59,898 nt of DNA from an uncultured Chthonomonas sp. (GTDB taxonomy: Bacteria > Armatimonadota > Chthonomonadetes > Chthonomonadales > Chthonomonadaceae): the NCBI GenBank assembly GCA_903859705.1, contig CAIONQ010000176.1:1-59898 (forward strand), written 5' to 3'. The notes beneath the pieces are model-generated. The model searched no databases and was not told the DNA's origin. It saw only the letters and a program-made list of their open reading frames with translations. Position numbers and translations under genes: made by a program. This document shows, one piece after another, positions 15,490 through 59,898 of the stretch (position 1 is its first letter; each line of letters begins with the position of its first letter).

Positions 15490-15647
15490 TTGAACCTCCG
15501 TAATGATCAAGCTAAAAACCTGACTGAACCGGCAGAACCACCCGCGCTGTAACTGTGAGCGTGCGAACAGTAGATAGCAGCGCCTGAAGAAGGGGAAAGC
15601 CCAAACGGAACCAGCGAAGGCGTTCTCGCTCCGTACAGAAGGCGCCT

Positions 15648-54157: not shown

Positions 54158-55222
54158 CTGACCTAAACGATTCAGCACTTGATTGTGGTAAGTGTTGTGT
54201 TGGATTAATTTGAAGCAGACCAGGTGTTGTGCCAGTGCTGGTTTGCCCTGCCTATGCCAGGTTTTCCTGTACTTACATCAATCTTATTGCCTGAACCGTA
54301 GTGAATAACGATATATCCTTTAGGATACATAGGTGTCGGATCCATTATCCGAATACTATTGTTATTACCTATAGATCCTGGCAACTGCCATACTTGTCCA
54401 GTATTCTTATCCCCTACCCGACCGACGTAACCTCTTGGAATCTCAATCGCCGGACCATCCGCAGGGCATATGGATCTTGCCCCGCCGGGAATCTGATCGC
54501 CAGGATTGCCTGGTTCGGATCCACCACCACCTCCTCCTCCTCCACCGATGCGATTGCCGCCGCCGCCACCAGGTATGCTTGTCATTCCCTCAGCCGCCAT
54601 GTCGGCACACATGGCAATGTTCATCACGATGTTCGCGCATGTTGCACCAGAGCCCAGAGGATCTGAAGTGCGCCGAACCATGCCACTGCCAGGGGCACCG
54701 ATTATGGATACCATGCCGCCGTAGGCGAACCAGTAACCTATGAGAACAGGAGTCAGTAAACCACCTGAGGCGAGTTCTGCGCCGATAACCACAATTGTAA
54801 CTACCAGGCCGATCCCGACACCAACGGCAACGTCTCCACCGTCCAGGCCTGATGGGTCAGATTTATCGTGGGGCTGTTGCCACAATACGCATACCGGGTT
54901 CACTGCCGCGCCGAGCGAAGCGAGGGAAGAGCGGTAGGGGGAAGTCTCCAGCGTAGATTGGATCCCTGGAAATAAACCTCCCTATGCTTGCATCATAGTA
55001 TCTGTGCCCGAGGAGCATCAGGCCGCTGTCAGCACCGGCAGATTCTGGTAGGCAAGGGCAGCTTTGCTGCGTGCTTATCCATTTTAGGTACTCCGTACAG
55101 GATTACCAATCCTGTACGGGGGTTACTGCCAGTAGAAGCTACCAGCATGCCAAAGCCATCGTAGCGTTTCGAGTCGGTTACGCTCTAAGACGACGCTGTA
55201 ATAAAGCCACCGCTGTTAAACG

Positions 55223-55298
55223 CTCCTCGCAAGCTCGAAGCTACAGCGCAATGCAAAAGTTCCTGCTTTGCATGTGTTTTATCGGCAGTTCGCCGATT
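55223..55298 (+). repeat. 76-bp structured repeat, copy 1
   Basis: CTCCTCGCAAGCTC at the start and ATCGGCAGTTCGCCGAT at the end. Two hairpins: ATGCAAA/TTTGCAT and ATCGGC/GCCGAT. It lies inside the RHS-1 pseudogene exactly where the intact RHS gene has only 11 unrelated bases. Aligned without gaps to the copy at 57330-57405. Confidence 0.65.
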
Positions 55299-55330
55299 GT
55301 CTGGCTTCTTGTTGAACCCTGTGCATCCCC

Positions 55331-55366
55331 TCCCGCACCGTAGTTGCTCCGCAACGTGCAGGAACC
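55331..55366 (-). repeat. GTTGC-GCAAC palindromic repeat, copy 3 (in-frame insertion in RHS)
   Basis: A 36-bp insertion, exactly 12 codons (SCTLRSNYGAGG) on the minus strand, absent from the intact RHS gene at the right edge (YHGDALGS there, YQG...DAQGS here). It carries GTTGC-GGA-GCAAC and then TACGGTGCGGGAGGG, as in copies 1 and 2. Confidence 0.65.
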
Positions 55367-55716
55367 CTGGTAAAAAGAGCTGGTTGATGAGCGGCGCTCG
55401 GAGAGGCCGGGAGTGAAAGTGGCAAGGCCGTCGGAGAGCACCGCTGCTACCGGCGAATCGCCATCGGTGATATAGTTGCGTGTGACGCTGGAATCTATCT
55501 TCTGAACACGCAGGTTCTGAAAACATTGGAAGCTAAGACTTACACGACATACAACGACATATAACGACTTATACGACCGCCGGATTCACTGCTAACCCGG
55601 GCGGTTGAAGGCTGCAATTCTGGCCACGTGCATCTTTTCACGGTTGCCTACACATGCGACAAAGCTGAACTCATTCTATTGGTTCAAGCCGCCCAGACGG
55701 AAGCTTGCATCAAGGT

Positions 55717-55857
55717 TTAATGCGGAGTAATCACCAACGCACAACAGCCACCTGTGGCATCGTGAATAATTTCGGTAAGTTTGTATGCCTCGAGTTTGCG
55801 GTACCCACCACGAGCACTTAGAATTGGCCCAGTTTCCAGGTTTGCACCTCGTGTAAG
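55717..55857 (-). pseudogene. Remnant of a four-helix-bundle (S23-like, suffix-type) protein
   Basis: A 46-codon frame without a start codon, closed at both ends by stops: RGANLETGPILSARGGYR then KLEAYKLTEIIHDAT. The ARGGYRKLEAYKLTEIIHDAT string matches the opening of proteins of the 23S rRNA-intervening-sequence/four-helix-bundle suffix group. The rest of the gene is missing. It is preceded upstream by ACGAC-rich sequence (55858-55886). Confidence 0.5.
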
Positions 55858-56042
55858 TCATATACGTCGTCTATGTCGTTGCAACAAGAACAACTAAAAC
55901 ACCTGTCTATTGCTAAAAACAACCGCCTATTGTATGCTCGGCCGTGCTGGTTCCCCCACTGGTTTTGTACTGGATCTCTGTTACCTGTTGGCATTATCGT
56001 ACGAATAGTAGGTTACCGAGGAATCGCCAGAGGTGAGGCTTA

Positions 56043-56339
56043 TCAAACTGGTCGCCGAAGACGACAAACTGGACATACACGCTGATACTCATTAGACCAA
56101 CCGTCTCCAGAGAAAAAGTGGTTACCACAATTGGGACAGGTGAGATTCAGTATTTTGCGACGTATCGTATAGATGTAATACATATCGCATACAAACCACA
56201 GAAACGTGAGTGGCGCGTACGTGATCATCATCAGCATACTCACAGGAATATAGGCAAAAAGTGAAGCCCGGTATATTCGCCGCAAGCGTACGAATTCGCG
56301 CCAATCAACAGGGACATCCTTAAGAAGTAGATATTTCAT
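56043..56339 (-). CDS. Small membrane protein with C-terminal zinc ribbon
   Basis: A 98-residue protein with two membrane helices (about 28-52, RASLFAYIPVSMLMMITYAP and TFLWFVCDMYYIYTI) and a C-terminal zinc ribbon, CPNCGNHFFSGDGW then VCPVC. Proteins of this plan are frequently found beside RHS/polymorphic toxin tips and may be immunity proteins for membrane-active or periplasmic toxins. Here it lies just downstream of the RHS-2 remnant. Role inferred. Confidence 0.65.
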   Translation of the reverse strand: MKYLLLKDVPVDWREFVRLRRIYRASLFAYIPVSMLMMITYAPLTFLWFVCDMYYIYTIRRKILNLTCPNCGNHFFSGDGWSNEYQRVCPVCRLRRPV

Positions 56340-56528
56340 TTACTGCCTTCAAGCACCATTCTTTGTGTACCTTCACAATACCCAAGACGCGGTGCGACAC
56401 ATGGCTCGCATCAGCGCAGCAACCTGCCCTCCTGATGTGAACCAGACGTCACACAATAATGCATCGTGGCAGATCAAAAAATTCGAAAGAGTCTGCAACG
56501 AAAGTACATCATTTTTCTCGTGCCCTTG

Positions 56529-57310
56529 CTACAGGGACCTAAGGTATCCAACAACATTAACGATCCCGTTAATCCAGTTGCCAGGCCCCTTCCACGTGTA
56601 ACCAATCGTTGGCCCGATAAAACCGCCAGCACCAACCGTTGGACCGATCTTGCCTCCTGCACCACCACCAACGTCAATGGATCCATCTACATGGGGACTT
56701 ACGCTAAGTTGGCCAGATATACCTATAGCATCACCGACGAATCCGACGATATCAATTGCAAACGACGGGCCAGGTGTGATGAACCCACTGCCAACCGACC
56801 CGCCAGGGCCGGCCGAACCCCCAACACCTCCGCCTATGCCAGCTCCGATATGTGGAGTTAGGCCCCAATTACCCATTGAGTCAAAGTCTACGGACACATC
56901 AGCCCACGCTCCAAAGAAAAGTCACCCACCAACCGCACCTAAACTTCCACTAACAATATAGTGCCCACTCGGATCCACCGCATTTACCGGATCATGCTCA
57001 CAGTAGAGATACGGCTTCTGATCCAGATAGGCGTCACGTGTGGTGAAGGCACCATCGCCGATCTGGCGATAAAACCCCGGCACAGAGGAATAATAAACCT
57101 GCGGAGCCGCCGAGCTTGCGAGGAGTCAAGGCTCCGTCGGATACGTTAAAAGCCCATTAAAACTTTGAGCCGCCCGGCATCACCATCATTCCGGTATCCA
57201 GATGTTGCCCCGAACTGATAGCTGCTGCCGGTAGTACCCGTGGTGGCCACGGCATTGCCGAAGGCATCCGGTGTGAGTGTTGACGGTACGCTACTTAAGG
57301 AAAGTAAACT
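56529..57310 (-). pseudogene. Second disrupted RHS 3' end (RHS-2)
   Basis: The minus strand encodes RHS core fragments: TLTPDAFGNAVATTGTTG then SSYQFGATSGYRNDGDAG, a break, then YYSSVPGFYRQIGDGAFTTR and YCEHDPVNAVDPSGHYIV followed by a glycine-rich tip (SVDFDSMGNWGLTPHIGAG). An in-frame TGA at 56922-56924 sits in G-G-stop-L-F-F-G-A-W, most simply a TGG to TGA nonsense change. Upstream, insertion of sequence containing an inverted CTCCTCGCAAGCTC piece (57112-57125) destroys the core. The tip reading frame remains open from 56897. Confidence 0.7.
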
Positions 57311-57329
57311 TGGCCGTCATGGTTGAACA

Positions 57330-57405
57330 CCCCTCGCAAGCTCAAAGCTACAGCGCAATGCAAGACTGCCTATCTTGCAAGTATTTTATCGGCAGTTAGC
57401 CAATT
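57330..57405 (+). repeat. 76-bp structured repeat, copy 2
   Basis: Matches copy 1 over its full length. The first hairpin has changed from A-T to G-C at one pair (TGCAAGA/TCTTGCA in place of TGCAAA/TTTGCA), a compensatory change. It lies between RHS-2 and the protease gene. Confidence 0.65.
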
Positions 57406-57636
57406 GAATCCGCACTCGCAAAGCCAACGCCGATCTCGCGACAAACCGCTGCCAGATCTTACAAACGCAACTCTTGGCACGGTTCTTAGCTCCCGAAGGG
57501 CAGTTATCACCAGTGTCGCTCGCTACGGGCCTGCGTTTTTCAGCGTTTCTGTCGACGTGTCGCCAGATCGTAGCATAATCCATTCGTCTGGCGTGCGGGT
57601 CGATCGTACCCAATCGGTAGCAACATTATCCGTATG

Positions 57637-58839
57637 CTATTTTAAGTGCGTACGCGGCGGGGCGGGTATATTTGCCCTGCAAACTATCGTAAAGTTGCGG
57701 GGTTTTCCATTCCGCATTACCTCAACGCAACACTTCCTTCCCACCGGAGAGGCTGTTAGAACTGAAATGGGAATTCCAATATTGTCATCATTGTGGTTTC
57801 CATCAAGTGCAATTAAGACATCACCGGACCTCAGGCCAGAGGTGTACGCAGGCGATCCATGCGCGACAGTGATACGTGAGTACTGGCCGAGCTTCATGCC
57901 GGGGTCCATATAGCAAAACTGTTCTCCAATTCTTCGCCCCGGCTTCAAATACATGACGCCGTGAGTCAGGTCGATTGTTACTTTGAACCTACGCGCAAAG
58001 TATATCCCGATGAGGATATCAGATCCGGGCCGGGGCTTGGGGCCGAAAACTCCAATCGCTGGCACGTTACGCAAATTAAACGGCCCAACAGATAAATATT
58101 TCAGCATGAATTCCCCACTCCTATGAAATCCGTCCAGCCCTAGCAGGTTTGTAGTCCTGAAAGGCTGCTGCGTTTGCAATGAGTTAAGTCGGCCCTGGTC
58201 ACATGCAATGTGCCCGCGGCATCCTGTATCCAGTTTAAGTTGCAGTTTCTGTCCATCAACATTTGCATTGAAAGTTGCGATGTTTTTGAGTTTTCTATCT
58301 AACCTGATTGCAGTACCAGCCTTACGCGATGGAATTCCCTGGTCAATAACAAGCGCAGACTCGTCGAAATCAAGAGTAATGACATATTTAGCCAGCACAT
58401 CCAAGCCGAGAATGCCGTCACAGTGCAACTGCATTACATTCTTTGAGCTAATCGCTACTAACACGCTTGGAATCTTAATCTTGCCAACTTGAAGGAACGG
58501 CAACATGGCAGCCTGACTCCTGGCGTGCAAGTTGTCCGGATCCATTGAGCGCACATCAAGATCCGGGTCATTGACAATGTTGAGCGCTCTGGCTGTTTCT
58601 GTGAATACGGTACTGCAAGTGCTTCCAGTGTCTACTAAAAAATTATAGTAGCCCTTGCCAGCAACATTCACGCGCACGCACGGCAAATCAAGATCGATTG
58701 TGAAAATCATAGGCACTCTGGCCAGGTGCGAGGCATGGCACAGACTTGTAGCACCCAGAAAAAGTTGAACTGCAAAACACATCTTTGTGAAAGCGATAAT
58801 CACTCGAGCAGGCCAGTGTCTATTCATGTTACCACTCAC
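57637..58839 (-). CDS. Secreted retropepsin-like aspartyl protease with PDZ domain
   Basis: A 400-residue protein with a signal peptide (MCFAVQLFLGATSLCHA). Two aspartyl-protease motifs occur in one chain: FLVDTGSTCSTVF (about residue 70) and LKLDTGCRGHIACD (about 205), with hydrophobic-hydrophobic-G closing strands (GILGLDVLAKYVI, SDILIGIYFARRF). The C-terminal 90 residues form a PDZ domain (GSPAYTSGLRSGDVLIALDG). This resembles bacterial two-lobed retropepsin-like proteins of Planctomycetes and Acidobacteria. It sits between two RHS 3' ends, so a role in toxin processing or degradation is possible but unproven. Confidence 0.75.
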   Translation of the reverse strand: MSGNMNRHWPARVIIAFTKMCFAVQLFLGATSLCHASHLARVPMIFTIDLDLPCVRVNVAGKGYYNFLVDTGSTCSTVFTETARALNIVNDPDLDVRSMDPDNLHARSQAAMLPFLQVGKIKIPSVLVAISSKNVMQLHCDGILGLDVLAKYVITLDFDESALVIDQGIPSRKAGTAIRLDRKLKNIATFNANVDGQKLQLKLDTGCRGHIACDQGRLNSLQTQQPFRTTNLLGLDGFHRSGEFMLKYLSVGPFNLRNVPAIGVFGPKPRPGSDILIGIYFARRFKVTIDLTHGVMYLKPGRRIGEQFCYMDPGMKLGQYSRITVAHGSPAYTSGLRSGDVLIALDGNHNDDNIGIPISVLTASPVGRKCCVEVMRNGKPRNFTIVCRANIPAPPRTHLK

Positions 58840-58948: not shown

Positions 58949-59898
58949 TTATTTCGCCCGTTTGTGAACCTTCGACGGACCTCCGTCAGTTTTACCGGGT
59001 ATTTTTGGACTCGTTGGTTTTGTAGGTGAAACTGGCGTAGTCGGCTTTGTCACGGGCGCGGGCAATTGGTACCCGGGGTCAGTCAGACGTGGGTACGGTT
59101 CTGGTGTTGGTGTCTGACCAGCATGGCCGCCCTGGCCGGACGGCTGATTGATGGGAAGAATCCACGGAGGCGTGATGTTTCCCAGATTAGACCCAACTGA
59201 GACAGCTGGATAAACAATTTCATCCTGAGTGATATGGATCTCATGGCGCACTTCGACAGTGCCATCTGGGTAGCGGATCTCACGCACTATGTCGTCGCTC
59301 CGGTAGTGCCGAGAGCCTCCTCCAATAAATGATCCCTGGATTGGATTTAGACCCTTCCCAGTCTGAATAAACTTGCCTACCCAGTCAACTAACCCGAGTT
59401 GTTTAGCGTCTCCAGCCAACCCTTCTGGATCCTCATGATCTAACGGATTGTTCTCACAATATGCATAGTAATTAGTCCCCGCATACGCCGGATCCCTGGA
59501 AATGAACCTCCCGATGCTTGCATCGTAGTATCTGTGCCCAAGCAGCATCAGGCCGCTGTCGGCATCGGTCTGGTACTGACTCCCACCCACAAACCCGAAG
59601 GGGGTCGGGTTTGAGCCAGTAGCAGCTACCAGCATGCCAAAGGCATCGTATCGCTTGGAGTCGGTTACGCTCTGGCTGGAGTTTGTCTGGCTTCTTGTGG
59701 AACCCAGGGCATCCCCATGGTAAAAGCTGCTTGTTGAGCTGCGGCGCTCGGAGAGGCCGGGAGTGAAAGTGGCAAGTCCATCGGAGAGCACGGCTGCCGC
59801 CGGGGAATCGCCATCGGTGATATAGTTGCGTGTGCCGCTGGAATCTATCTTCTGCACACGCAGATCATTACCGTTGTACTTGAAGCTGTTAGTCGCGC
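58949..59898 (-). CDS. RHS-repeat toxin protein, C-terminal part (runs off the right edge)
   Basis: The last about 316 residues of an RHS protein continuing beyond the window. The hyperconserved core is intact: SDGLATFTPGLSERRSSTSS, SKRYDAFGMLVAATGSNPTP, then GHRYYDASIGRFISRDPAYA and YCENNPLDHEDPEG. After the DPEG junction the variable tip has about 155 residues: KQLGLVDWVGKFIQTGKGLN, YPDGTVEVRHEIHITQDEIV, and a P/T/K-rich end. No catalytic motif is recognised in the tip. Such proteins are polymorphic toxins or surface proteins. A hairpin follows the stop. Confidence 0.85.
   Translation of the reverse strand, partial: ATNSFKYNGNDLRVQKIDSSGTRNYITDGDSPAAAVLSDGLATFTPGLSERRSSTSSFYHGDALGSTRSQTNSSQSVTDSKRYDAFGMLVAATGSNPTPFGFVGGSQYQTDADSGLMLLGHRYYDASIGRFISRDPAYAGTNYYAYCENNPLDHEDPEGLAGDAKQLGLVDWVGKFIQTGKGLNPIQGSFIGGGSRHYRSDDIVREIRYPDGTVEVRHEIHITQDEIVYPAVSVGSNLGNITPPWILPINQPSGQGGHAGQTPTPEPYPRLTDPGYQLPAPVTKPTTPVSPTKPTSPKIPGKTDGGPSKVHKRAK

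Follow-up and report, generated by a model that had tools for sequence, protein, structure and literature searches.

The BOX elements of Streptococcus are modular, structured and intergenic repeats, with their subunits in tandem. The PATE and other miniature elements derived from IS200/IS605 carry hairpins near both ends, and no target duplication is expected from them. The REPINs reportedly replicate as a unit in which a variable spacer separates two short sequences that each form a hairpin. In a study on REPs (PMC3733652), families with the GTAG or CGTC tags are described in eight phyla; these REPs are short, extragenic, high-copy palindromes with complementary stem changes, and are often restricted to a genus. 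Some REP families have no known transposase, and the REP dimers are mainly head-to-head or tail-to-tail (PMC3733652).

The window analysed here is a stretch of 59,898 nt from a Chthonomonas draft genome (6.24 Mb, 179 contigs, 95.7% complete). It contains a repeat which, like the REPINs, has two hairpins around a variable spacer; however, a REPIN consists of one sequence and its inverted copy, whereas the two hairpins of the Chthonomonas repeat (H1 and H2) are unlike in loop and stem. The full unit of about 90 bp, with ends known only to within a few bases, includes H1, a variable middle of about 27 nt, the motif TTTTA, and H2. On the plus strand the unit begins with about 20 nt bearing a weak TTTG-rich motif. 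H1 is composed of an outer stem, an inner stem and a 10-nt loop (TCGCAAGCTC), and this nested arrangement differs from the REPs. The outer stem is GCGCTGT/ACAGCGC in most copies, but CGGAGCC/GGCTCCG in subfamily B; the H1 loop is near-invariant across the family and the stems vary. The H2 loop has 5 nt (AGNTC). H1 and H2 fold as separate hairpins near both ends of the unit, as in the PATE elements, but they are not copies of each other. The repeat is also modular, structured and intergenic with tandem subunits, like the BOX elements; however, the order and sizes of the modules differ, and the likeness is one of description. The internal units of the tandem arrays, which have a period of about 100-180 bp, are often without the right arm of H2. 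A few copies carry an insert of about 45 nt in the H1 loop (CTCTACYGCTTGATCCGAGCACGCTCGGCGCTCTCAGAGAACAC or similar), which is itself partly palindromic (L013:1450-1590, L029:225-354, L010:1969-2099, L067:565-694 and L080:385-514).

Two copies in the same orientation (55215-55299 and 57322-57406) share 84% identity over 85 nt, and both match R1, a covariance model built from an alignment of 35 copies (A1). The pair of equal-length copies in the initial annotation is therefore real. Copy 1 (55208..55299, plus strand) is a full unit from H1 through the middle and TTTTA to H2 (R1 94.9 bits, E = 2.7e-24; included in A1). By the family pair counts, its H1 spans 55210..55249 on the plus strand; the outer stem pairs 55210-55216 with 55243-55249 (the first pair is mismatched in this copy), the inner stem pairs 55222-55226 with 55237-55241, and the invariant loop occupies 55227-55236. 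Its H2 (55281..55297, plus strand), preceded by TTTT, pairs ATCGGC (55281-55286) with GCCGAT (55292-55297). In copy 2 (57315..57406, plus strand, 59.2 bits) the outer stem has decayed and H2 has one mismatch. The unit had been given as 76 bp; the repeat is present, but it is longer, and the 5' arm of the outer stem (55210-55216), decayed in copy 2, had been missed. Similarly, what had been read as a short inverted piece of the repeat (57112-57125) is the 5' part of a full inverted third copy (57052..57139, minus strand, 55.1 bits), which is diverged and belongs to subfamily B. A weak match at 57424..57515 (minus strand, 19.7 bits, E = 0.003) is tentatively a fourth copy, probably decayed. A further copy, truncated at H2, is located in an intergenic gap (15508..15585, minus strand, 57.1 bits), immediately 5' of a ribosome-binding site (GGAGG) and an ATG, and may be in the leader of that gene. 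The window also contains a second short repeat family, with the consensus CCCTACGCCGTAGTTGCTATCGCAACGGGCAGGGAACCCG and the hairpin GTTGC-TATC-GCAAC preceded by GTA, at about 55337-55370 (plus strand), 52366-52327 (minus strand) and 10653-10628 (minus strand). About 15 copies of it were found in the extracted loci, sometimes directly 3' of H2 of the main repeat, and the copy at about 55337-55370 shares an RHS stretch with copy 1.

Copy 1 as the query yielded 36 matches in its own genome, and an iterated nhmmer search of the extracted loci yielded 54. R1 revealed 107 copies in this genome at E ≤ 0.001 and 114 at E ≤ 0.1. The sister genome G001, the sole genome of the same genus compared, has five copies. 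None of the 289 other genomes of the phylum matched R1 at E ≤ 0.001, which excludes a chance origin of the repeat; it thus occurs in 2 of 291 phylum genomes, both from the genus Chthonomonas. Many copies sit at contig ends of the draft genome, where they may break the assembly, and the real copy number is therefore probably higher; some copies were duplicated together with larger flanks, so that the copy number overstates the transposition events. An origin from phages or plasmids was rejected, since no match was found among them by blastn, or in IMG/VR by an exact-pattern search. Exact-pattern matches in Labrenzia (L035) and HR30 (L038) were also discarded; they have no second hairpin in the sequence examined, and their number is about that expected by chance (an estimate) for a pattern of this length.

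The initial annotation suggested that pairing is maintained and that the folded form may matter, and proposed covariation over all genome copies as a check. Pairing is maintained across the family, with evidence mostly from H1 and H2, and covariation is strong in the H1 inner stem and in H2. In A1, 88.9% of the cells are paired (79.0±0.8 after shuffling), 76 cells are double-changed (29±5.7 shuffled; 10 of 18 pairs), and the covariation score is 0.286 (0.128±0.011 shuffled); the shuffles ignore relatedness, and the covariation counts are not probabilities. When the partners were slid by 1-3 columns, pairing fell to 19-54%, in a control biased toward the proposed structure, which these same copies had served to define. 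The inner stem is perfect in 41 of 86 copies (shuffled mean 6.3, maximum 14), and the H2 stem in 55 of 80 (shuffled mean 14.4, maximum 27). The H2 arms AGCGGC, ATCGGC, AGCGCC and ATCGCC each occur mostly with the exact partner; all four combinations of two H2 pairs are present with matched partners, and the H2 types combine freely with the inner-stem types. The structured DNA repeat family is real and well supported.

The compensatory change that first drew attention lies in a third, middle hairpin (55252..55272, plus strand, in copy 1). It is TGCAAA/TTTGCA in copy 1 and TGCAAG/CTTGCA in copy 2, and the A-T to G-C exchange therefore stands. However, this hairpin is clear only in a subfamily of five copies, and one of the five (L010) breaks the compensatory pair (C-T). 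Across the family it has 7 double-changed cells against 3.4±1.3 shuffled, a marginal value, and the middle hairpin was rejected as a feature of the whole family.

Covariation might also arise by mutation without selection. Quasi-palindrome correction, a template switching within the hairpin, would perfect mismatched arms in single events, and half-way states are indeed nearly absent in several pairs; for example, the second pair of H2 is GC in 33 copies, TA in 25 and GT in 3. As a full explanation it is nevertheless quite improbable, as it leaves the invariant H1 loop, the conserved spacing, the copy number and the dispersal unexplained. Such correction could operate alongside a mobile repeat.

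The hairpins might instead belong to a structured RNA, either a cis-regulatory element or a small RNA, which was amplified in the genus and whose stems were selected at the RNA level. The strong covariation of the stems, the extragenic position and the one copy that immediately precedes a ribosome-binding site are in favor of this. An RNA from the plus strand is expected to tolerate G·U over A·C. Among 66 non-redundant copies there are 24 G·T cells and 69 A·C cells; 44 of the latter come from two poorly supported pairs, and without these the counts are 24 and 25. There is no G·U excess over A·C, and DNA hairpins therefore fit better than a plus-strand RNA. On the minus strand both weak pairs (9-37 and 19-32) would be G·U, and a molecule from that strand may remain compatible with the mismatch counts. 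Rfam searches of the window and of ten loci gave no match for the repeat, only matches for group II introns. Moreover, the copies have no clear or consistent orientation relative to the adjoining genes, the neighbour genes are many and different, and decayed RHS genes hold copies as well. The RNA role considered in the initial annotation is thus not favoured, and a structured RNA is an unlikely explanation.

The Chthonomonas repeat resembles the REP/BIME repeats in its high copy number (107), compensatory stem changes, restriction to a genus and extragenic position; 107 of 111 copies are outside the predicted genes according to a simple codon-usage gene caller, which misses short or atypical genes and leaves RHS remnants counted as non-coding. 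The coding density of the window is about 80%. Differences from the REPs were also found. The constant GTAG/CGTC tag is missing; on the minus strand, the sequence next to the H1 stem is TGTA and then A (64%) or G, and no CGTC occurs in the alignment. Another copy is located within 300 bp of 55 of the 111 copies, and close neighbour pairs are head-to-tail in 29 of 33 cases, the opposite of the cluster orientation of REPs. With the tags missing and the head-to-tail orientation dominant, the repeat was therefore classed neither with the GTAG/CGTC REPs nor with the REPINs. The passages of PMC3733652 consulted here also do not name the Armatimonadota among the phyla.

RHS genes provide sites with and without the repeat. 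The intact RHS site (PEYRRDD..GTV-(R/S)WYLYDGLGSV) is found in the source genome (C51:19-390) and in G001 (C528:282-662, C587:3985-4362 and C587:9060-9440). In other RHS paralogues of both species the unit lies exactly at the point GTV^(R/S)WYLYDGLGSV, where the RHS-associated core domain (TIGR03696) starts. Further occupied RHS sites include copy 1 of the window, L091, and L071/L085 before YVRARYYD. These empty paralogues suggest that the element is an insertion; in G001, the copies at the same site may trace to one insertion, because the RHS cassettes themselves were duplicated. The comparison covered one genome per species, and the empty sites are all paralogous. The unoccupied paralogue of the copy 1 site, identified by sequence comparison, is at 59655..59716 (minus strand), within an ORF (58949-59896) that has the TIGR03696 domain. 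Copy 1 had been described as replacing 11 bases of the RHS core. It does interrupt the RHS sequence relative to this paralogue, but the figure of 11 is only approximate, because part of the extra upstream sequence (55187-55207) is RHS-like. The L095 locus (G001 C587) is an RHS array with several core-plus-tail cassettes, resembling orphan RHS modules; some of its cassettes are intact, and some are interrupted by the repeat at one same codon. Adjoining the RHS remnants of the window, a protein encoded at 57637-58839 (minus strand) has two aspartyl-protease matches (gag-asp type) and a PDZ-like domain.

The sequence GTC^CGATGG in C51 suggested that the target might supply the right arm of H2 by base pairing; the window site contradicts this, since GCCGA is missing from its RHS paralogue. 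The RHS sites showed no target-site duplication. This bears on a classical MITE, with terminal inverted repeats and moved by a DDE transposase, which the small size, copy number and intergenic preference would suit. However, each end of the unit folds into its own hairpin and the two ends do not pair, and together with the missing duplication this makes a MITE very unlikely.

No Y1_Tnp gene, that is, no REP transposase or RAYT, was found in the source genome, although this is not proof of absence because the genome is only 95.7% complete. In the sister genome there are two Y1_Tnp genes, of which one is IS200-like by its translation, and no copy lies near either. In this respect the repeat differs from the REPs with a RAYT, the REPINs and the PATE elements, and the search for a REP-type transposase proposed earlier was negative. 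The enzyme search of the source genome covered the Y1_Tnp, TnpB, IS110-type and IntI families, a subset of the transposase families. Neither TnpB nor an IS110-type transposase was found there; a TnpB/OMEGA-type RNA and an IS110 bridge-RNA end were therefore rejected. Among the genes adjoining the copies there is no recurrent transposase-like family, and only RHS recurs widely.

Two other known systems act on folded sites. The repeats might be integron-like recombination sites, folded as single strands like attC in cassette arrays; the fold, the head-to-tail arrays and their variable spacers are of this kind. However, no integron integrase (IntI) was above the cut-off, and similarly weak matches occurred in all 14 of 14 control genomes. 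The RYYYAAC/GTTRRRY boxes were not seen in the alignment, the array spacers are too short to hold gene cassettes, and there are two separate hairpins instead of one long hairpin. attC-like sites are thus hardly credible. Group II introns include a class that targets hairpins, and they might have produced the repeat as a by-product. Two were identified (L071:2826-4770, and about 485-2434 in the reverse complement of L033; Rfam matches D1-D4-3 and RF00029), one of them inside an RHS gene; they carry reverse transcriptases, both within about 2 kb of copies, and the source genome yielded no others. However, about 250-410 bases separate their 5' ends (GTGCG) from the copies, the hairpin that precedes the C32 intron is unlike that of the repeat, and two introns cannot account for about 110 copies. 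The introns and the repeat may simply share a preference for hairpin-rich or RHS-rich places. Such a by-product is extremely improbable, and the repeat was rejected as an intron target since the intron ends are not at its hairpins.

The family probably consists of dispersed DNA repeats of the REP/BIME/BOX type, small and non-autonomous, whose hairpins would be read by an enzyme acting in trans. It is likely new, genus-restricted and REP/BOX-like, and presumably mobile; by analogy, it may work like a REP/BIME or BOX element. The mobility suggested in the initial annotation gains indirect support from the copy number, the dispersal, the genus restriction and the empty RHS paralogues, but not from a REP-type transposase, which was not found in the source genome. 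H1 and H2 would form in single-stranded DNA, such as replication or repair intermediates, and the enzyme would recognise the hairpin loops and insert the unit. The RHS genes would be one of several insertion places, and copies inserted there would then increase in number as the RHS arrays multiply. The mobilising enzyme may have disappeared from the genome, fall outside the draft assembly, or belong to a family other than those searched. A more specific version is tentative and rather doubtful: a lineage-specific two-hairpin mobile DNA might be spread by a loop-reading enzyme other than Y1/RAYT, with the compensatory changes preserving its recognition site.

How most small palindromic repeats spread is unknown, though they shape bacterial genomes. 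In the Chthonomonas family, many copies are available whose stems clearly covary around an invariant loop; no REP transposase was found, and the cluster orientation is opposite to that of the REPs. The family may therefore help to test whether anything besides RAYT can mobilise DNA hairpin repeats.
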